Assembly: GCA_029238665.1 (NCBI GenBank)
Contig: JAQWFQ010000025.1
Coordinates: 1 to 47,293 of the forward strand
Direction: 5' to 3'
Length of the DNA stretch: 47,293 nt
Origin: Crocinitomicaceae bacterium
Lineage (GTDB): Bacteria; Bacteroidota; Bacteroidia; Flavobacteriales_D; Crocinitomicaceae
Every line of letters begins with the position of its first letter. Position 1 is the stretch's first letter. The notes under the pieces are model-generated. The model was not told the DNA's origin, did not search any database, and was given only the letters and a program-made list of their open reading frames with translations. Made by a program: the position numbers and the translations under genes. This document shows positions 2 to 27,184 of the stretch, in pieces.

Positions 2-75
2 CTCTCCCTCTAGGACTCGAACCTAGGACCCTCTGATTAACAGTCAGATGCTCTAACCAGCTGAGCTAAGGGAGA
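2..75 (-). tRNA. tRNA-Asn (anticodon GTT)
   Basis: Read on the minus strand, the segment folds as a full cloverleaf. The 7-bp acceptor stem is TCTCCCT with AGGGAGA, the D arm contains AGCTCAGCTGGTTAGAGC, and the anticodon stem TCTGA/TCAGA encloses the loop CTGTTAA. The T arm contains GGTTCGAGTCC. The loop puts GTT at positions 34-36, so it reads Asn codons. Position 2 is the discriminator base, and the window edge cuts whatever follows, so an encoded CCA cannot be judged. Confidence 0.96.
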
Positions 76-289
76 ATGTTTTGTCGCAAAAGCGAGTGCA
101 AATATATGTAAAAGAAACTATTCCCTCAAACAAAATGTTTAAAAAATTATTGTTTGATGTCAATTATACCCTTTACTCCATAAGGCTGAATAAAAATCAA
201 GGATATTTATTCAGGGGTAAAATTAACATGGATACTTTTTTGTTTCTTTGTTATGTAAAAAGATCGCCAGGAATAAATAGTTGAAACCG

Positions 290-1363
290 ATGTCAGTTCA
301 AGAGAAGGAAAGTATTGCGCTAGTAGAGTTTGCAGGATCGCACGACGAGTGTCTTTACAGTCAATTATATGCGTTGTCAAATTTAGGTAAGCGTGTAATC
401 CTTATCTGTAACCCAGAAATTCGAGAACGCAACCCACACTTTGAAAACTTTGTGGAGGAGTTTATTAGCGTATCGTTTTCTAAGTCTAAATTTAAGAACA
501 ATAGAATATTGCGCGGCCTTTTAAAAAGGTTAAACCAAGAAAATGTTTCAAAAGTAGTACTAAACACTGCGCAAGGTGGAAGGGTTAGAAACTTGTGTTT
601 AATGAGTTTGTTTTCTCGCATTGAGTTCATTGGCATTATCCATACAACCCGAAAATTTAAAGGTTCGTTTACACAAAAAATCATCAACTGGAAGGTGAAA
701 AAATACCTGCTGCTCAGTAATCACTTAACGTCAACCGTTGTTCCACCCAAAGGAATAACGATTGATTATTTTTACCCAATCCGATACCAAGGGCAAATTA
801 AATCTACCCCGTCAAATTCAACGCTAGAGATTACAATTATTGGCGGTGTAGAGAACAGGCGAAAAGACTTAAGTGGCTTTATTAAAATTGCCTCTAAGCT
901 CGAGCAGGATGTAAACTTTACGTTTTTAGGCAAGAGTGACCCTGCGCATGTTGATGTGCAAGAGTTTCAAGAGGCGTTGGCAAAGAATAAGTTAACAGCT
1001 TGTGTCAAAACCTTTGATCATTTTGTTTCTCAAGCGGAATTCAACACACAGCTACTGAAAACAGATGCCATTTTACCCTTAGTGCATCCAAATACACAGA
1101 GCGCAGACCAGTACTTTAAGAATCAAATTTCTGGGGCAATGAGCGTTGCCTTTGGGTATAAAATACCAATGTTAATTCATGAGTATTATAGCCAAATCGA
1201 AGAAATGAAAGGGATGAGTGTTTATTACAATCCTTCAAATTTTGGACATCGTTTAAGCCAGAAAAAACAGTTTGAAACAACGAGAAAAAACATGGAAAAA
1301 AACCCTTTAATTGATGTTGATGTGCAAGAGGAACGTTACCTTAATTTTATTTTTTCCGATTAA
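290..1363 (+). CDS. Glycosyltransferase-like protein (GT-B fold, family 4 type)
   Basis: The protein has 357 residues from the ATG at 290; an in-frame TTG lies 9 bases earlier, but ATG is preferred. It looks like a GT-B glycosyltransferase. The N-terminal half has alternating beta/alpha segments with an early LVEFAGSHDECLYSQLYAL stretch. The C-terminal half opens with LEITIIGGVENRRKDL, the usual start of the nucleotide-sugar-binding Rossmann domain, and continues through FTFLGKSD and later AFGYKIPMLIH. There is no signal peptide, so it is probably cytoplasmic and works on polysaccharide or lipid-linked sugars. Donor and acceptor cannot be told. Its 3' end overlaps the convergent uvrC gene by 17 bases. 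The family call is by overall pattern rather than a diagnostic motif. Confidence 0.7.
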   Translation: MSVQEKESIALVEFAGSHDECLYSQLYALSNLGKRVILICNPEIRERNPHFENFVEEFISVSFSKSKFKNNRILRGLLKRLNQENVSKVVLNTAQGGRVRNLCLMSLFSRIEFIGIIHTTRKFKGSFTQKIINWKVKKYLLLSNHLTSTVVPPKGITIDYFYPIRYQGQIKSTPSNSTLEITIIGGVENRRKDLSGFIKIASKLEQDVNFTFLGKSDPAHVDVQEFQEALAKNKLTACVKTFDHFVSQAEFNTQLLKTDAILPLVHPNTQSADQYFKNQISGAMSVAFGYKIPMLIHEYYSQIEEMKGMSVYYNPSNFGHRLSQKKQFETTRKNMEKNPLIDVDVQEERYLNFIFSD

Positions 1364-14253: not shown

Positions 14254-14284
14254 TAAAAAGGCTTCCGCAAGGAGGCCTTTTTTT
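14254..14284. terminator. Bidirectional terminator between the PPIase gene and dprA
   Basis: The hairpin GGCTTCC-GCAA-GGAGGCC, with one G-T pair, is flanked by an A-run on the left and seven T on the right. It can therefore end transcripts from both the PPIase gene (stop at 14237) and the convergent dprA gene, whose stop codon at 14283-14285 lies at the edge of the T-run. Confidence 0.88.
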
Positions 14285-15401
14285 ATGCCATAGAATATCG
14301 ATTTCCAGGATGCGACTTTATAACGCCCTCCATTTCTAACTCAAATAATTCTGAATTTAATTTTGAAATTGGAAGCGTTGTTTCAATGGAAATCTTGTCT
14401 ATCTGTGCAAGTTGATTTTTTACAAGGGTGTCAACAATCGTTTTTTGAATTTCACTAAGCGACTTCAAGGTAGAAGTATAGTCAACTGTACGTTCGGCGG
14501 ATTGCCAATTCATTAGGGTAAGAAAATCAAGGGGGCTTTGTATGAGGTGTGCTTTTTGGTCGTGGATCAATTTGTTGCACCCCTTTGAAACTTCTTGATG
14601 TATGGAACCCGGAAAAGCAAAAACATCTCTATTATAATCGTTGGCAAGGTTGGCTGTAATTAGAGAGCCTCCCTTTAGCTTACTTTCGACTACAATGGTA
14701 GCTTCTGCTAATCCCGCAACTATTCGGTTTCGTTTCGGAAAATTTTCTGGTCTAGGAGTTGTTCCAGGAATGAACTCACTGATGAGCCCACCTAAATGTT
14801 TCATTTGTTCAGCTAAAGCTATATTTTGAGCGGGGTAAAGACGATCTATACCGTGCCCCAACACGCCAACAGTAGGAACGCCATACGCGATGCAATATTT
14901 GTGCACGAGGGTGTCAATTCCGAGGGCTAGCCCACTAATTACAGTAATATTTTGTCCTTTAAACGATTGAATCAGTGATTTTACAATTTGTTCCCCGTAC
15001 GGCGTGCTGTTTCGTGTCCCGACAATGGAAACAATCTTTTCGGCGTTTAATTTGACGGCACCAGTTGCGTAAATCAGAAGGGGAGAGTCAACACAGTTTT
15101 TGAGCCGTTGTGGATAGTTTTTGTCTGTGTAAAAGGCGCATTTAATGTTGTTTTTAACACAATAATTATATGTTTTTTCAGCTTTTTCAAGAGCCTCTTT
15201 TCGCTTTAAACTTTGAATCTGCTTAATGGTTAATCCTGTTTTTGTGACGAGTTGTTTCTCTGAAAGCAGAAATAATTCATCGACAGAATTTAACTTAAGC
15301 ATCAGTTTTTTGGCTTTAATTGGGCCAATTCGATTAAGCATGGTTAGCCCTATTTGGTAATGTAGGTGGCTGTAGTTCAAAATAATTGGTATTTTAGTCA
15401 C
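14283..15401 (-). CDS. dprA: DNA processing protein DprA (Smf family)
   Basis: The 372-residue protein has the DprA architecture. An N-terminal helix-hairpin-helix region (LHYQIGLTMLNRIGPIKAKK) precedes the Rossmann-like core with IVSIVGTRNSTPYGEQIVKS, VISGLALGIDTLVHKYC, VGVLGHGIDRLYPAQN, ENFPKRNRIVAGL and KGGSLITANLAND. A C-terminal winged-helix segment follows (LPISKLNSELFELEMEGVIK). DprA protects incoming single-stranded DNA and loads RecA during natural transformation; many non-competent bacteria also keep it. The start is GTG at 15401. An ATG at about 15341 would remove the conserved LHYQIGLT segment, so GTG or another upstream rare start is favoured. Only 21 bases separate this start from that of the divergent TonB receptor gene. 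Confidence 0.93.
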   Translation of the reverse strand: MTKIPIILNYSHLHYQIGLTMLNRIGPIKAKKLMLKLNSVDELFLLSEKQLVTKTGLTIKQIQSLKRKEALEKAEKTYNYCVKNNIKCAFYTDKNYPQRLKNCVDSPLLIYATGAVKLNAEKIVSIVGTRNSTPYGEQIVKSLIQSFKGQNITVISGLALGIDTLVHKYCIAYGVPTVGVLGHGIDRLYPAQNIALAEQMKHLGGLISEFIPGTTPRPENFPKRNRIVAGLAEATIVVESKLKGGSLITANLANDYNRDVFAFPGSIHQEVSKGCNKLIHDQKAHLIQSPLDFLTLMNWQSAERTVDYTSTLKSLSEIQKTIVDTLVKNQLAQIDKISIETTLPISKLNSELFELEMEGVIKSHPGNRYSMA

Positions 15402-19725: not shown

Positions 19726-20946
19726 ATGAGAGAAAATATAATCACCTTAGCGTTTGTAGGACTTGCATCCTTTAGTTTTGGACAATTTTCCTATTCTAAA
19801 CCAGCGTCAAACGCGAAAGGGAGCGAATACAAGTTCAAAAAAATAGCACATTTAGATGCTACGCCAGTTCAAAGTCAAGGTTATACAGGAACGTGTTGGA
19901 GTTTTTCAGCGCTGTCTTTCTTTGAGTCTGAGTTAATGCGCCAAGGAACAGCAGATCCAGCGCTGTTGTCAGAAATGTATATTGTGCGGAAAGCGTACGA
20001 AGGAAAAGCGGAAAAGTACATTCGTATGGATGGAAAAATTAACTTTTCAGAAGGAGGAGCATTTCATGATATTCCATATGTAATTAGAAATTATGGAATA
20101 GTTCCTTTAGAAGCTTATGACGGATTAAACTATGGTTCAAATAGGCATAACCACAGTGAAATGTTTAGTGTGTTGGACGGAGCTGTTCAAGGCCTTTTAG
20201 AGCACATGAAAAAGCGAAACGTAAAGTCGCTAACATCTGCATGGAAAGTCGCATTATACGGAATACTAGATGCGTATTTAGGCGAAGACGTTAAGGAGTT
20301 TGAGTTGGACGGAGAAACATACACACCTAAATCATATGCCCACGCTATTGGTTTGGATATGGACGACTACGTGTCGTTGACTTCTTTTACGAATCATGAA
20401 ATGAATAAAGAGTGTATGCTTGCCATTCCCGACAACTGGGCTTGGGGGAAAGGCTACAACGTTGAAATTAATGCCTTAATGGACGCATGTGAAAATGCGC
20501 TTAAGAATGGATACTCGTTGGCCTGGGGCGCCGATGTGTCTGAAAAAGGATTTAGCTTTTCAAATGGGCTTGCAATCAACCCTCAAGATGAAGAAACAAT
20601 ATCTGTTTCAGGGAATGATAACAAAAACTTTTCTGATGGTGGTGCCGAAAAAAAATCAAATGCGTTTAAGACACCTGTTGCTGAGGTCAAAGTAACAGCT
20701 GAAATTAGACAAGAAGGATACGAGAACAAATCAACAACGGATGATCACGGAATGCATATTGTTGGTCTGTACAAAGACCAAAACAATACACGGTACTTCT
20801 TAGTAAAAAACTCTTGGGGAACAGGGAATTATCCTCAAGGGTATCTTTATGTTTCTGAAAGCTACTTCAAGTGGAAAACAATCAATGTATACCTACACAA
20901 GGACGGTTTGTCCAAAACAATGAAAAAGCAATTAGATATTAAATAA
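19726..20946 (+). CDS. Secreted C1-family cysteine peptidase (aminopeptidase C / bleomycin hydrolase type)
   Basis: The ATG at 19726 is chosen over an in-frame upstream start because it gives a signal peptide (MRENIITLAFVGLASFSFGQ) and has a promoter 22 bases before it; the protein then has 406 residues. The papain-type catalytic residues are all present in order: Cys57 in SQGYTGTCWSFSAL, His344 in DDHGMHIVGLYKD and Asn362 in FLVKNSWGTGNYPQG. The Gln of the oxyanion hole is in VQSQGYTG. The layout matches C1B peptidases (bleomycin hydrolase/PepC), here exported to the periplasm or beyond. It probably trims peptides for nutrition. Part of its 3' end is repeated in decayed form at 25668-25825, on the far side of the lipoprotein cluster. 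Confidence 0.9.
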   Translation: MRENIITLAFVGLASFSFGQFSYSKPASNAKGSEYKFKKIAHLDATPVQSQGYTGTCWSFSALSFFESELMRQGTADPALLSEMYIVRKAYEGKAEKYIRMDGKINFSEGGAFHDIPYVIRNYGIVPLEAYDGLNYGSNRHNHSEMFSVLDGAVQGLLEHMKKRNVKSLTSAWKVALYGILDAYLGEDVKEFELDGETYTPKSYAHAIGLDMDDYVSLTSFTNHEMNKECMLAIPDNWAWGKGYNVEINALMDACENALKNGYSLAWGADVSEKGFSFSNGLAINPQDEETISVSGNDNKNFSDGGAEKKSNAFKTPVAEVKVTAEIRQEGYENKSTTDDHGMHIVGLYKDQNNTRYFLVKNSWGTGNYPQGYLYVSESYFKWKTINVYLHKDGLSKTMKKQLDIK

Positions 20947-21073
20947 AAAGGCTCATCAACATTACTATAAGTAATTACTCGCTAATACAATTTCTAAAAA
21001 CTCTAACAGACTTTGGTAAAAGATGGCATTGTATTTGACAATAGTCAAAGAATAAATTTAAAAAAATTGAATA

Positions 21074-22195
21074 ATGAATAAAACAACAACTTTTCTTATC
21101 ACGCTAGTATTTAATTTGTTACTAATTCAAAGTATAGAAGCTCAAAACATATCGTGGTCAACATCAGATGGGTTTACAAGCACCATTGTCACCATACAGA
21201 CAACTAATAATCAACAAACTAGGTACGATAACGCCCTTAATTATCTTTCTAGTACTCACGCAACTACAAAACAACTTCAAGACGTCTGTTTTTATCTAAA
21301 CAACGATCAAGAGAAATATAACCTTTGTCTTGCAGCATATCCAAACATCCTTGATAAGGATAACTTTATTAATATTTACAATTCTTTTTCCTCCGTTTCT
21401 AAAGCAATTGAACTATATCGTGATACTCAAGGGAAAGACGAATTATTGTCAGTTCAATACAATAACCAACTAAAGATTGAGCAAGATGTTAACACAACGT
21501 TTGATTTACTTATGCATCAAGGAGACATTCTGTTATCAGCAAATAAATTTGATGAAGCGATTACATTATATCTCAAAGCAAAGAACCTAAAACCTCAAAG
21601 CTCAGTTCCAAGCGCAAAGATAGAAGAAGCTCGTAAATGGCAACAAGAACTTGCAAATTTAAACAGTCAACAGAGCCAGATTAGCGTAAAATTTGATGCG
21701 CAAATTCAACAAGGAGATCATCTATTGACATATAATCTTTTTGATGAAGCAATATCATCTTATGAACGTGCAATGACTCTAAAGCCTGGAGACAAAACCG
21801 CGTATACTAGAATAAAAGAGGCTAACAGAAGAAAACAAGAATTTATGGATTCAGAACCAGATGTAGAAACTATTATTCACACAACTGAAATAATAGAAGA
21901 AGCGTGTTTTACAGAAGACAGTAAATTTTCACATATTATCACAACTATAGAGGCTCAATCATTTTCAGATGATAAAAAAGAAATGGCTAAAAAACAGGTT
22001 TCAAAAAACTGCTTATCTATCGATCAATTTAGGGCAATTGTGCCTTTATTTAGTATGGATGATGATAAATTAGAATTTTTAAAGTTCATTTATGATTATG
22101 CTGAACATCCTGAGAAAATCTATCTGCTTAGAGACCTTTTAACATTCTCTAGTTCGAAAAAAGAATTTGATGATTTTCTAATTGAGAAAGAATAA
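21074..22195 (+). CDS. Secreted TPR protein with DUF4476-like ends
   Basis: The protein has 373 residues with a signal peptide (MNKTTTFLITLVFNLLLIQS, cleavage likely after EAQ). Residues about 35-115 look like a diverged DUF4476 module. Two TPR-like hairpins follow with clearly similar sequence: LMHQGDILLSANKFDEAITL and IQQGDHLLTYNLFDEAISSY, near residues 140 and 210. The C-terminal region (about 275-371) is a better DUF4476 match, with IEAQSFSDDKKEMAKKQV, QFRAIVPLFSMDDDKLEFLK and LLTFSSSKKEFDDF. It is probably periplasmic or surface-exposed and acts through protein contacts. It leads a four-gene run of envelope proteins, and the next gene's start lies just after its stop. The region is AT-rich compared with flanking genes. 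Function is unknown. Confidence 0.7.
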   Translation: MNKTTTFLITLVFNLLLIQSIEAQNISWSTSDGFTSTIVTIQTTNNQQTRYDNALNYLSSTHATTKQLQDVCFYLNNDQEKYNLCLAAYPNILDKDNFINIYNSFSSVSKAIELYRDTQGKDELLSVQYNNQLKIEQDVNTTFDLLMHQGDILLSANKFDEAITLYLKAKNLKPQSSVPSAKIEEARKWQQELANLNSQQSQISVKFDAQIQQGDHLLTYNLFDEAISSYERAMTLKPGDKTAYTRIKEANRRKQEFMDSEPDVETIIHTTEIIEEACFTEDSKFSHIITTIEAQSFSDDKKEMAKKQVSKNCLSIDQFRAIVPLFSMDDDKLEFLKFIYDYAEHPEKIYLLRDLLTFSSSKKEFDDFLIEKE

Positions 22196-22214
22196 TATAC
22201 TGAATAGAATAGAA

Positions 22215-23570
22215 ATGTTAAAATACCTGAGTCTACTTATTACAATACTACTTTTTAGCTGTTCTGGCTCTAAGAAAATGTTAAAAAAAGGGCATGTGCT
22301 AGAGCATAATAAACAATATGTTGAGGCATCAAATTTTTATTTTGAAGCGCTTAATCGAAAAAATTCTAATGTTGATGCATCGATTGCTCTAAACAGAGTC
22401 GGGGATAAAGTATTAAATCAATATCTAAATGATTTTTACAAGAAAGAATCAATAGGAGATGTTAAAAGTGCTGTATACGCGTATTTAAAAGCATTCAATT
22501 ATCAAAAAAAGTTAAATCAATATAAAATTTATAAGGATATTCCTAATCACTATCTAGAGAAATATGAAAATGTGAAAAGAATATATCTTAAAAATCTTTA
22601 CGAAGAAGGCGAAAACTTAATGAGTGAGTTAAGCTATAAAAATGCTGAAATCTGTTTTATAGAGATTTTGAAATTTAACGCAGAATATGAAGATGCAAAA
22701 CAGTTAAGGGATATCGCTTATGTTGAGCCTCTTTTCATTAAGGCTAAGATAAAGTTAGAAGGGAAAAATTACAGAGATGCATATAATAATTTTGTGTTGG
22801 TGCTTGAAAGAATACCGAATTACAAAGATGCCTTAGAGTCAAAAGCTCAAGCGTTGGAACTTGGCAGACATAATTTTTTAATTTTTACTTTTGAAAACAT
22901 AACTCACAAAAAACATATTGAGACTAAAATATCAAATTATATTTCTAATGAGTTATCGAATTTAAATGATCCATTTTTGCGCTTAGTTGATCGGGCTAAT
23001 TTTGAAAAAATAATGAGCGAACAAGAGTTAGCTCTTTCTGGATTTGTTGATGAAAGTAAAGCTGCAGAAATAGGAAAGCTTCTTGGCGCTCAAAAAGCTA
23101 TATCAGGGAAAGTGATTTCCTACTCCCATAAAGTTAATCAGTCACAACCTCAAAAAAAACAAGCTGCTGAATCATACACCGTAAGGAAAAAAAGGGTAGA
23201 TGGAGAAGGCTATACGTCAGAAACTAAATATAAAAAGGTAAATTATACTAGCTACAATAAAAGTGTTGATGTTCATGTTGAATTTCATTATAAACTAATT
23301 TCATTAGAAACCTCAGAAGTTTTATTAAGTGACATTATTGATATATCGTCAAATGATGTCGTTTCTTACTCTGTTTATAACGGGGACTCTAAAAAGCTGC
23401 ACGCAATATCTAATAGCGGGATAGAAAAAGGGTACTCTTCAACTACTGGAAAATTGAGATCACAATTTTCTAAAAGGAAAACATTAAAGTCTGAAAAAGA
23501 ATTAAGCAATGACTTATTTAAAAGTATTTCAGGTAAAGTTTCTAAAAAAATAACTCAATATATAGAATGA
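22215..23570 (+). CDS. TPR lipoprotein with CsgG-like domain
   Basis: The ATG at 22215 gives 451 residues and a clear lipoprotein signal (MLKYLSLLITILLFSCSGSK, lipobox LLFSC); a TTG at 22182, overlapping the upstream gene, is less likely. Residues about 20-215 are helical repeats of TPR type (KKGHVLEHNKQYVEASNFYF, AEICFIEILKFNAEYEDA, AYNNFVLVLERIPNYKDALE). From about 219 a CsgG/LpoB-like fold begins: FLIFTFENITHKKHIETKIS, RLVDRANFEKIMSEQELALS, AAEIGKLLGAQKAISGKVIS. CsgG forms the curli export pore and its relatives include flagellar and penicillin-binding-protein regulators. A Lys- and Tyr-rich insertion follows near residues 310-350. The protein could assemble in the outer membrane or tether partners. 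Whether it forms a pore cannot be told. Confidence 0.72.
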   Translation: MLKYLSLLITILLFSCSGSKKMLKKGHVLEHNKQYVEASNFYFEALNRKNSNVDASIALNRVGDKVLNQYLNDFYKKESIGDVKSAVYAYLKAFNYQKKLNQYKIYKDIPNHYLEKYENVKRIYLKNLYEEGENLMSELSYKNAEICFIEILKFNAEYEDAKQLRDIAYVEPLFIKAKIKLEGKNYRDAYNNFVLVLERIPNYKDALESKAQALELGRHNFLIFTFENITHKKHIETKISNYISNELSNLNDPFLRLVDRANFEKIMSEQELALSGFVDESKAAEIGKLLGAQKAISGKVISYSHKVNQSQPQKKQAAESYTVRKKRVDGEGYTSETKYKKVNYTSYNKSVDVHVEFHYKLISLETSEVLLSDIIDISSNDVVSYSVYNGDSKKLHAISNSGIEKGYSSTTGKLRSQFSKRKTLKSEKELSNDLFKSISGKVSKKITQYIE

Positions 23571-23577
23571 TCTTGTT

Positions 23578-24984
23578 ATGAGGGACTTGTTTCTGTTTTG
23601 CATACTAAGCATCTTATTTTCTTGTAAACCTAGCAAGGAGATAGTATTTGATAATTCAGAATTATCAAATGAACAAAACGTGCCAGATTGGGTAAAAACC
23701 CATCCTATTTCTTCAAGCTATTACATAGGCATAGGGATGGTCAATAAAGACAGTGAAAATTTAGAATATAGAGAGCAAGCCAAAAAAAATGCACTAAATG
23801 ATTTGGCATCTGAAATTAGTGTAACCATAAAGAGTAATTCTTTTTTATATACAATGGAGTCTAACGGTAGCTTTAATGAAGATTTTAACTCTACCATAAA
23901 AACAGAGATTAACAAAAACCTTGAAGGGTATGAATTAGTAGATAGCTGGGAAGACGAATCGATATATAAAGTATACTATCGTATTTCTAGAAGTGAATAT
24001 CATCAAAAGCAAAAAGAAAAAAAAGAAAAAGCATTAAGACTTTGTTACGATTTATATCTAAAAGCTGTTGCTGCTGAGGAAAAATCGGATGTCTCATTAG
24101 CAATGAATTTAAATGCAAGGGCTTTGCTTTCGATTAAAAAATATTGGAATGAGATAAACGAATACAATGTGGGGAATAAATTAATATTTCTGGAAAATGA
24201 GATTTCTGCAAATATTCAACGGATTTTAAGTCAAATAAAATTAGAAAATATTGATAAGCAATTTAAACTTTCTTTTACCAATAAGTATTCCAATACGCTT
24301 ATAATAGAATGTTTATTTAATAAAGAAAAGATTTCTTCCCTCCCACTAAACCTCTCTTATTATAAGAGAGCAAAATACACCGAATCTAGCAAAAGATATA
24401 CTGAATCTAAAACTTCTGAAGCAAACGGAGAGGTATCTTTTTTCGTGTCAGACCTGTTTGTATCAAAAGAGCAAGAGCTCACGATAGATGTAGACATAAT
24501 AAAAATACTAAATATCGATGGTGAAAATTTAAATCTGATGAAAGGAATACTCAGGAGGTTTCCTGAAATAAAATTATCGATACCTATTAAACTAATCTTA
24601 CCAAAAATTTTCATTAATGTGGAAGAAAAAAGTCTAGGTGAAAAGTCTTCAAATAAGATTCTTACAAACACTTTTAAAGAAAATTTCATTAAAAATAATT
24701 ATGATATAGTTGATTTAAAGCCATCAGATGGTTTAACATTAACAATAGCTACGGATACGGAATCAGAACTTCCATTCGGGTCATCGTTTATTCCTGCATA
24801 TTTAAACGGTGTAATATCACTCAAAAATAACAAGTCAGGGAGAACCTTGTATAGCAAAGCCTTATCGAATATAAAAGGAATCCACTCTACTAAAGATAAA
24901 GCCAGCTTAAAAGCTTACCAAGAAGCGAGAGAATTAATTAATGAAAGTATATTTAAAGAGGTCCTAATGACAATTACTAATTAA
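23578..24984 (+). CDS. LPP20-like lipoprotein with extended C-terminal domain
   Basis: The 468-residue protein opens with a lipoprotein signal (MRDLFLFCILSILFSCKPSK). Residues about 35-145 resemble the LPP20 fold: VPDWVKTHPISSSYYIGIGM, EQAKKNALNDLASEISVTIK, then YKVYYRISRSEYHQKQKEK. This pattern of a PxW motif, an alanine-rich helix with A..NA...LA, and a YVYxRIS-type strand is shared with LPP20 and the N-terminal part of FlgT/FlgP-like proteins. A helical segment and a long C-terminal part follow, ending with NGVISLKNNKSGRTLYSKAL, which resembles CsgG/TolB-type edge strands. It starts 7 bases after the CsgG-like gene, so both are surely cotranscribed. Function is unknown; a joint role in an outer-membrane complex is inferred. 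Confidence 0.7.
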   Translation: MRDLFLFCILSILFSCKPSKEIVFDNSELSNEQNVPDWVKTHPISSSYYIGIGMVNKDSENLEYREQAKKNALNDLASEISVTIKSNSFLYTMESNGSFNEDFNSTIKTEINKNLEGYELVDSWEDESIYKVYYRISRSEYHQKQKEKKEKALRLCYDLYLKAVAAEEKSDVSLAMNLNARALLSIKKYWNEINEYNVGNKLIFLENEISANIQRILSQIKLENIDKQFKLSFTNKYSNTLIIECLFNKEKISSLPLNLSYYKRAKYTESSKRYTESKTSEANGEVSFFVSDLFVSKEQELTIDVDIIKILNIDGENLNLMKGILRRFPEIKLSIPIKLILPKIFINVEEKSLGEKSSNKILTNTFKENFIKNNYDIVDLKPSDGLTLTIATDTESELPFGSSFIPAYLNGVISLKNNKSGRTLYSKALSNIKGIHSTKDKASLKAYQEARELINESIFKEVLMTITN

Positions 24985-25062: not shown

Positions 25063-25656
25063 ATGAAAAAAGTTAAACAATCTGCCCTTTTTATGGGGAT
25101 AACATTAATGTCAATAGTTAGCATCCAAGGATGTAAATCAAGTGAAGAAGCAGTCACACAAGAACTAAAGAATAAAGGAGAAATTGAAATTATAGAACAT
25201 TGTTCAGGAGACGATTATTTTTCTAATAAACAATATTTTAGAGCTAATGCAACAGGAGAAAGTCTTGATAGAGAAACTGCAAAGAAAAAAGCTAGATCGA
25301 ATGCAATGGCACAATTGGCTAAGTCTATAAAAGCAACTATGAAAATAGTTGGAGATAATTATGTTAACTCTACAGAGTTTAATAATAAAGAAGAAGTGAC
25401 AGAAACTTTCAATGAGTTATCGAGAACCGTGGTTGACCAAGAAATTTCAGGAGCTGTTAAGATTTGTGATAAACTAACACAAAAAAGTGATGATAAAAGA
25501 TATGTATCGTATATAGCACTTGAATTATCAGGGCAAAAAATTGCTTCAAAGTATGCTGAATCGCTTTCTAAAGATGAAAAAATTAAAGCAGACTATAATT
25601 ATGAAAAGTTTAAAGAAACTTTTGAAAAAGAAATGGAAAAGTTAGGAAATAGATAA
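25063..25656 (+). CDS. Small LPP20-like lipoprotein
   Basis: The 197-residue protein has a signal peptide and a lipobox-like SIQGC (Cys24). The mature part has the LPP20-like pattern YFRANATGESLDRETAKKKA, SNAMAQLAKSIKATMKIV, then RYVSYIALELSGQKIA, followed by a charged helical tail. It resembles the N-terminal domain of the larger LPP20-like protein upstream, from which it is separated by 78 bases, so the two may have arisen by duplication. It is the last gene of the four-gene island; a strong terminator lies about 200 bases downstream. No specific function can be assigned. Confidence 0.7.
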   Translation: MKKVKQSALFMGITLMSIVSIQGCKSSEEAVTQELKNKGEIEIIEHCSGDDYFSNKQYFRANATGESLDRETAKKKARSNAMAQLAKSIKATMKIVGDNYVNSTEFNNKEEVTETFNELSRTVVDQEISGAVKICDKLTQKSDDKRYVSYIALELSGQKIASKYAESLSKDEKIKADYNYEKFKETFEKEMEKLGNR

Positions 25657-25667
25657 TTCTTAATAAC

Positions 25668-25825
25668 TACTAAAAGCATATGTATTTTTTAGTAAAAAGC
25701 TCTTAGAGAATAGATTGAAGGTGTTTTATGAATTATTTTTTATGTTTTTGAAAGCTACTTAAAGTAGAAATTGTGAACGTATGCCTGCTAAATATGTTTT
25801 GCCTAAAACAAGGAAAAAGTAATTA
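25668..25825 (+). pseudogene. Decayed second copy of the 3' end of the C1 peptidase gene
   Basis: No open frame survives, but the DNA aligns with the intact peptidase gene. Bases 25683-25713 match 20794-20824 at 25 of 31 positions, all six differences being transitions. Bases 25741-25825 match 20848-20934; within this, the first 30 bases differ at 3 positions and the last 28 at 4. In the matching frame the intact VKNSWG becomes VKSS-stop, losing the catalytic Asn and the Trp. Weaker similarity extends left to about 25668. This is a relic of a paralogue or duplicated end, now separated from the intact gene by the lipoprotein cluster. Confidence 0.85.
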
Positions 25826-25849
25826 ACTTTCAATTAAAAAAAAGAATAA

Positions 25850-25886
25850 AAAAAGGGGGGGTCAACAGTGTTGACTCCCCCTTTTT
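25850..25886. terminator. Strong bidirectional terminator between the lipoprotein island and dxr
   Basis: The 12-bp stem (GGGGGGGTCAAC with GTTGACTCCCCC, one G-T pair) has an AGT loop and is flanked by an A-run on the left and five T on the right. It serves both the plus-strand island and the convergent dxr gene ending at 25924. Confidence 0.95.
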
Positions 25887-25923
25887 ATGTCTCATCGAAT
25901 AGCCAAAATATAACCCTAATCGT

Positions 25924-27078
25924 TTAGATTAATTTAGCAGCAACCTCACGTGATAGTTTATCAATTTTGATATAATCTTCAACTGTTGGTTTTTGAATCA
26001 CCTCAACTAACTTTAGTGTTTTGGCATTTATTCTAGGAATATCTAAGAAAGTAATTTTTTGATTTAAAAAAGCATCCACGGCTATCTCGTTCGCAGCATT
26101 TAGCGTACACGCTGCAGTACCTCCTATTTCTAATACATCAAATGCCAATTGAAGGTTTGTGAAGGTTTTTTGATCAGGTTTTTCAAAAGTTAATTGGGGA
26201 TAGTCAAGAAAATTAAACCTCGGAAAATTGGATGAAATACGGTCAGGGTATGTTAGCGCATATTGTATTGGTAATTTCATGTCAGGAAGACCCATTTGAG
26301 CTTTCATGCTACCATCTTCAAACTGCACAATTGAGTGAATAATCGACTGAGGATGAACAATTACATCAATCTGTTCAGGTGCCAAGTTGAATAGCCATTT
26401 TGCTTCAATTACCTCGAGACCTTTATTCATTAATGTCGCTGAATCGACTGTTATTTTTGCTCCCATTTCCCAATTTGGATGTTTTAAAGCTTGTGCTTTT
26501 GTTACCTCCATTAATTGCTCTTTAGTATACCCCCTAAATGGGCCTCCAGAAGCCGTAAGGTATATTTTTTCAATTTTATTGTGAAACTCTCCTGCCAAAC
26601 ATTGAAAAATTGCAGAGTGTTCAGAATCTACAGGGTAAATGTTTACACCATTTTCTCGTGCTTCTTTTGTCAAAATTTCTCCGGCAACAACAAGTGTTTC
26701 TTTATTGGCTAACGCTATGTTTTTTTTTGCGCGAACGGCCGCTAATGTTGGCCTTAAACCTGCGTAGCCTACCATTGCTGTCAGTACGGTGTCAATTTCA
26801 CTTGACTCAACCACTTGCGACAAGGAATCTTCACCGGCGTACACGTGAATGTCATGTTCCCAAAGTGCAGTTTTCACCTTTTCAAAATGCGCATCGTTAA
26901 CGATTACAGCAGTATTGGGTTTGTATTTTATGGCTTGTTCTATAAGTAAATCAGCGCTATTATTTGCCGTTAGTACCTGTAAATCAAAATGGTCAGGATG
27001 TGCCTCAATGACATCTAATGCCTGAGTTCCAATAGACCCCGTTGAGCCTAAAATAGCTATACCTTTTTTCTGTTTCAT
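25924..27078 (-). CDS. dxr: 1-deoxy-D-xylulose 5-phosphate reductoisomerase
   Basis: The ATG at 27078 gives 384 residues, the usual length; a GTG 21 bases upstream is possible but would add residues before the nucleotide-binding loop. The enzyme converts DXP to methylerythritol 4-phosphate with NADPH, the committed step of the non-mevalonate isoprenoid pathway. Visible motifs are IAILGSTGSIGTQALDV (NADPH), ALANKETLVVAGEIL, PVDSEHSAIFQCL (metal Asp and Glu), LTASGGPFRGYTKEQL, KITVDSATLMNKGLEVIEA and HPQSIIHSIVQFEDGSMKAQ, ending with a helical C-terminal domain. A TACTTTTG box lies 4 bases before the ATG, suggesting a leaderless transcript. Confidence 0.97.
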   Translation of the reverse strand: MKQKKGIAILGSTGSIGTQALDVIEAHPDHFDLQVLTANNSADLLIEQAIKYKPNTAVIVNDAHFEKVKTALWEHDIHVYAGEDSLSQVVESSEIDTVLTAMVGYAGLRPTLAAVRAKKNIALANKETLVVAGEILTKEARENGVNIYPVDSEHSAIFQCLAGEFHNKIEKIYLTASGGPFRGYTKEQLMEVTKAQALKHPNWEMGAKITVDSATLMNKGLEVIEAKWLFNLAPEQIDVIVHPQSIIHSIVQFEDGSMKAQMGLPDMKLPIQYALTYPDRISSNFPRFNFLDYPQLTFEKPDQKTFTNLQLAFDVLEIGGTAACTLNAANEIAVDAFLNQKITFLDIPRINAKTLKLVEVIQKPTVEDYIKIDKLSREVAAKLI

Positions 27079-27082
27079 GAAA

Positions 27083-27090
27083 CAAAAGTA
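27083..27090 (-). promoter_or_regulatory. Putative -7 box of dxr (TACTTTTG)
   Basis: This exact TAnnTTTG match on the minus strand lies 4 bases before the dxr ATG. No good -33 TTTG is visible at the usual distance. The spacing also supports the ATG at 27078 over the GTG at 27099, which would lie upstream of this box. Confidence 0.4.
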
Positions 27091-27184
27091 AGATTTCACA
27101 GAGGATGTTGTGGTAAAAACGGCAATATTTCAACAAACTAATCCAGTGAGTAATATTATGTTTTCAAAACGATTGAAGTATTCT

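Follow-up and report, generated by a model that had tools for sequence, protein, structure and literature searches.

A decayed peptidase gene end beyond a lipoprotein operon as the probable footprint of an insertion, with later exchange of the locus between two species of Crocinitomicaceae

The window analysed here is a stretch of 47,293 nucleotides, contig JAQWFQ010000025.1 (C22) of a Crocinitomicaceae genome (G000; assembly GCA_029238665.1, 2.2 Mb, 98% complete). It carries on its forward strand an intact C1-family peptidase gene of 406 codons, hereafter pep (19726–20946; Pfam Peptidase_C1_2 and Peptidase_C1), which is matched at E ≤ 1e-10 in 49 of 60 relatives and whose nearest named relative, 90% identical, is that of Flavobacteriales bacterium UBA4466 isolate FRAM18_bin200 (CAJJBE010000004.1, L101). 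Downstream of pep, after a spacer without strong hairpin (20947–21073; 20940–20995 folds at −2.4 kcal/mol, z −0.7), four genes on the same strand make up the island. These encode a TPR protein with a DUF4476 domain (21074–22195; Pfam DUF4476 5e-21), a CsgG/LpoB-like protein (22215–23570; Pfam CsgG 3e-08, LpoB 1e-06), an LPP20-like protein (23578–24984; Pfam LPP20 3e-14) and a 197-residue protein without Pfam match that is, by eye, probably a lipoprotein (25063–25656). There follow, also on the forward strand, a remnant of the pep 3′ end (25682–25840) and a terminator-like hairpin (25850–25889; 25843–25895 folds at −28.4 kcal/mol, z −6.8), the latter absent from the listing of a simple terminator scan, and then dxr on the reverse strand (25924–27099), the convergent neighbour of pep and the right homology arm of the locus.

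A sequence-only reading of the window, made without database searches, had proposed that 25683–25825 is a ruined copy of the end of pep. The copy is real, and the homology reaches slightly beyond these coordinates: the last ~155–180 bp of pep, from about −181 up to its stop, correspond to 25682–25840. Local alignment (match 1, mismatch −1, gap −3/−1) of 25657–25925 with pep and its downstream DNA gives a score of 57, compared with a mean of 13.5 and a maximum of 20 for shuffled sequence (0 of 1000 shuffles reach 57), this being one check by which the proposal had been meant to stand or fall. The best scores among the 67 forward and 66 reverse segments of the window, excluding those overlapping pep, are 16 and 18, respectively. 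By blastn, 25682–25837 matches pep at 69% over 158 bp (E 2e-16), and when the entire 5-kb gap is compared with full-length pep, this 3′ end again matches best. The finer details that had been noted by eye were borne out as well: transitions alone, six in the alignment, separate the block at ~25683 from pep, the final 28 bases (25798–25825 versus 20907–20934) differ at four positions, and K-N-S-W of pep, the active-site Asn region, reads K-S-S-stop in the remnant. The same stop is present in the copy of the pep end in a related genome, G015, and indels add to the decay. Beyond the insert, then, the pep end is present as a truncated direct duplicate.

The island itself is rare in the family. Among 240 genomes of the family, two (G000 and G015) have its CsgG-like gene and five its LPP20-like gene, with only that of G015 closely alike; the other three are 26–42% identical over parts, and each adjoins a relative of island gene 4 (51–52% identical). 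Searches with the CsgG-like and LPP20-like genes returned, besides G015, no close match and hence no donor among the 240 family genomes. Within the order CsgG-like genes are found in 125 of 399 genomes, G000 and G015 included, and here too no close match was seen, the others showing at most 39% identity to the CsgG-like protein; at the six best of these loci an LPP20-like neighbor is present in all six and a DUF4476 part in four. The G+C content is 0.28–0.32 in the island and 0.37–0.45 in its flanks. The presence of the gene set elsewhere among Flavobacteriales and its rarity within this family suggest that the island was imported. Relatives of the LPP20-like protein were not found in viral contigs, PADLOC returned no match for the four island proteins, and no integrase was detected among these proteins, pep, dxr and three further scanned neighbors.

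The pep–dxr junction was then compared among 34 same-genus genomes (G000 included), 20 of which have convergent pep and dxr within 13 kb; in G012, G029 and G030 the two genes are apart on long contigs, and in the remaining 11 they lie on separate contigs or one was not found. The gap measures −9 to 114 bp in six of the 20, which are near-empty sites, and in the other 14 it holds inserts of 0.5–12 kb with differing contents, so that different gene sets occupy the same place among relatives: G009, G011, G027 and G020 carry one gene each, and G000 and G015 the lipoprotein operon. Inserts of ~400 bp also separate pep from dxr at the named loci L119, L120 and L125, which are outside the count of 20. 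In G016 (L062, 4712–11581), the closest island-free relative, a his cluster lies between the pep terminator and dxr (seven ORFs scanned). G021, G025 and G018 (L065, L066, L067) have in common a 10–12 kb set with an ORF of ~1290 aa, and no detectable pep remnant was found in their gaps. The gaps of G017 (L076) and G023 (L079), 535 and 944 bp in length, lack ATG-started ORFs of at least 60 aa and may contain decayed genes. The sequence-only reading had called for relatives either without the island or with an uninterrupted pair of C1 peptidase genes next to dxr; the former were found and the latter were not, a second pep gene adjoining dxr occurring in 0 of the 20 genomes. A strong hairpin directly follows pep in G016 (z −5.2), and its homologue in G000 follows the remnant. 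Since this hairpin stands after the remnant in G000, after pep in G016 and is absent at the intact pep of G000, the remnant is best read as the original pep end, still in its ancestral place in the order remnant–hairpin–dxr, with the island as the newcomer.

Detectable pep remnants are present at three of the 14 insert-bearing loci, those of G000, G015 and G020, corresponding to two events. A one-strand nhmmer search of 41 gap and flank pieces and alignments of 16 gaps with their own pep genes and with shuffles (the gaps of G001, G033, G022 and G007 being too short and left out) both returned these three only, and no further weak matches came from a two-strand nhmmer search of 74 loci. One match in the G023 gap, short and to another part of the gene, has a score that 1 of 200 shuffles reaches, and was left out of the count. 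As a control, 438 ORFs from 35 loci (0.6 Mb) were scanned, which likewise gave intergenic truncated pep ends in three loci, together with one 79-bp match (L127) and repeats (L108); no fair rate follows from this because the loci are centred on pep. The L127 match (653–731) is an intergenic copy, 71% identical, of the 3′ part of an ORF (29–577, reverse strand), and lies upstream of that ORF. With the last 75 residues of pep as query, at least two matches were obtained in 23 of the 240 family genomes, and within these 23 a second piece beside pep on the same contig was seen only in G020, a result to be read in light of broken assemblies, which could hide others (the two pieces of G245 are at contig ends).

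The second case, G020 (NVXU02000047.1, Fluviicola sp. NORP3; L078, L114), has the order pep, YceI-family gene (Pfam 5e-18), pep remnant, dxr, with a pep–dxr gap of 678 bp that contains this one gene. Its remnant is a 103-bp pep 3′ end that runs into the end of dxr and is identical to its own pep at 88 of 103 bases (0 of 200 shuffles reach the alignment); by alignment the remnants are about 181 bp long in G000 and about 103–106 bp in G020. Some 3 kb beyond dxr in G020 lies a second YceI-like gene (L114, 14878–15462), 74% identical to the inserted one; pep aligned with the DNA beyond dxr scores 16, the noise level. In a maximum likelihood tree, built on a short alignment of 174 columns in which bootstrap values are not settled, the remnants of G000 and G015 group with the pep genes of G000 and G015 (97/89) and that of G020 with G020 pep (97/91). 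Cargo and remnant length both differ between G000 and G020, and the G000/G015 and G020 remnants appear to stem from two separate events, each confined to one lineage. No distant donor of the pep end is seen in this tree, and the proximity of each remnant to the pep of its own genome implies either a same-lineage origin of the incoming end or local copying.

Comparison of G000 with G015 brought to light what the sequence-only reading had not foreseen, namely an exchange between species of the island together with parts of both flanking genes. In 200-bp windows the two genomes are 68–92% identical where alignable between 12.0 and 20.4 kb, 71–90% between 26.7 and 27.5 kb, and 92–100% from ~20382 to ~26535, with exceptions at 21800–22199 (88–91%) and around the remnant (80–88%). 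The left edge of the shared tract lies inside pep (20382/20383), where the last mismatch of the divergent part, at 20382, is followed by the next at 20430 and third-position divergence steps from 0.416 to 0.138 (Fisher p 4e-10). The right edge lies inside dxr (26535/26536), with third-position divergences of 0.118 in 25924–26535 and 0.367 in 26536–27099 (Fisher p 7e-9). Four-fold sites show the same steps (Fisher p 0.014 for pep and 0.002 for dxr). Among 435 pairs, from 30 sequences per gene, G000–G015 is the top outlier for pep (z 5.9, cut 720) and dxr (z 5.3); the pep set dropped G021 by a length limit (1095 bp) and has one row, G034, from another genus. When pep is cut at 960, G000–G015 comes second (z 3.2) to G033–G020 (z 3.4), and the shift of the latter pair, z 2.8–3.4 among the 435, is only suggestive of a G033-like source for the pep end of G020. 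The control pair G000–G016 shows no divergence step. A tract of ~6 kb from mid-pep to mid-dxr has been swapped between two species by homologous recombination, with its edges, mapped in this one genome pair, inside both flanking genes. At another variable spot of the window, 14300–15200, most of an ORF (14283–15401, reverse strand) has no counterpart here in the G015 alignment.

The remnant differs between G000 and G015 at 26 of 142 positions, much as do the four-fold sites of the arms (29/142, p 0.76) and far less than background four-fold sites (290/601, p 2e-11), from which it appears that the remnant travelled with the tract and decays neutrally. At four-fold sites the island is less diverged (39/436) than the arms (p 0.0005). 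The first half of the TPR/DUF4476 gene (21100–21699) is identical in the two genomes, with 0 mismatches in 600 bp, and the island outside it is mostly 88–98% identical. Given that the island is less diverged than the arms and that 21100–21699 is identical, the tract is probably a mosaic of more than one exchange, the identical stretch reflecting either strong constraint or a nested exchange of more recent date.

What the data show directly are the homology, the ancestral order, the G020 case and the exchange tract, and the reading that we favor, at a probability of about 0.68, is that the remnant is the displaced tail of pep, left on the far side when the operon was inserted, and that the locus was later exchanged between the G000 and G015 lineages. 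This agrees with one of two origins offered by the sequence-only reading, an old duplication dating from the island's arrival, for which the near-empty sites in six of 20 genomes, the order remnant–terminator–dxr, the G020 footprint and the grouping of remnants with their own pep now argue. The incoming DNA would have carried the lipoprotein operon behind a copied pep end. On the left it would have joined through homology in pep, and we infer a single homologous crossover that duplicated the pep end; on the right, either the same single crossover of a circle or an illegitimate join of a linear molecule inside the old pep tail would have closed the insertion. The product, intact pep followed by the operon and the truncated old 3′ end, would have kept both convergent genes functional. 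The spare tail would then decay at the neutral rate, and its decay would also weaken the direct repeat by which the island might loop out. At a later time, homologous recombination in the two flanking genes would have exchanged everything between the middle of pep and the middle of dxr. Natural transformation is a plausible route: in G000, 21 same-genus genomes and 12 others of the order, ComEC (PF03772) is found in 30 of 34 (G015 being one in which it was not found) and Ku in 0 of 34, a combination that suits DNA uptake better than end joining.

The main rival, which can be likened to a long target duplication, is a local duplication in which a staggered break or template switch copied 100–180 bp of the pep end around captured DNA, with no donor pep. 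It is consistent with both remnants grouping with the pep of their own genome and with homology between intact copy and remnant stopping no more than about ten bases from the pep stop; on these data a local copy and a same-species donor look alike. The lack of Ku, however, makes ordinary end joining unlikely, and we consider local duplication improbable. The other origin offered by the sequence-only reading, two full pep genes side by side with the island arriving between them and the second decaying, is compatible with homology and order alone, but is not supported by the wider comparison: no genome of the 20 has a second pep beside dxr, no pep sequence upstream of about −181 was detected in the gap, G020 likewise retains only ~105 bp, so that both cases keep the 3′ end only, and the remnants of G000 and G015 fall inside the G000/G015 clade. 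We hold it to be very unlikely.

Islands at tRNA genes are known to replace the gene end on site-specific integration, and tyrosine recombinases integrate islands at gene 3′ ends, restoring the gene end and displacing the old one. Were the pep 3′ end such an attachment site, with an integrase-bearing element having replaced it, the same topology and displaced old end would result, and the two events seen at one gene end are in keeping with it. Against this, no integrase was found among the island proteins or scanned neighbors, the G020 gap amounts to 678 bp with its one YceI-family gene, and the remnants differ in length (about 181 versus 106 bp), so that no common core site is visible; we hold site-specific integration, too, to be very unlikely.

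The process is of a known kind. Single crossovers at Escherichia coli lacZ gave duplications of 109–950 bp of the lacZ end in 14 sequenced clones, arising from circles missing part of that end, and true one-sided events made up only 4 of 60 clones (PMC3240628). The likeness lies in an insert beside a truncated direct duplicate, about 103–181 bp here; the difference is that an engineered plasmid was used there, whereas pep carries a natural operon and an old footprint from which a mechanism can only be reconstructed. Homology-facilitated illegitimate recombination similarly has one homologous and one non-homologous side (PMC3240628, PMC5361080), but in the laboratory it generally brings a deletion of similar size (PMC3240628), where at pep the gene end is duplicated. 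One-sided recombination has also been proposed, in another setting, to explain older downstream segments displaced to a position behind new genes (PMC5361080). A survey of 80 species describes integrase-less hotspots that diversify via recombination in flanking core genes (PMC5635113); the pep–dxr locus resembles these in its variable DNA between two shared genes and its exchange edges in both, and differs in that a single tract was mapped here, its two species being 68–92% identical (200-bp windows) outside it, where the earlier work was a statistical survey.

More tentatively, and with considerable doubt, the pep–dxr junction might be a recurrent entry port, at which foreign genes are repeatedly captured through one-sided homology with the pep end and without an integrase, leaving datable footprints, and cargo spreads between species via pep and dxr; since the convergent genes abut or overlap, safe entry of cargo would here need a duplicated gene end. 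One-sided homologous insertion is, in the work cited above, known mainly from the laboratory, and the pep locus would be a natural example. Near-empty relatives, a displaced gene end still where it originally stood, a further and separate case, and a subsequent exchange mapped at both edges come together here, and the locus stands out because its footprint is a natural one, has been seen twice and is accompanied by mapped edges of exchange. Genome-wide searches could use such a footprint, a truncated 3′ gene copy lying beyond an insert, as a simple mark, and the locus points to a route by which an operon lacking an integrase may settle between convergent genes and spread through uncultured Bacteroidota.
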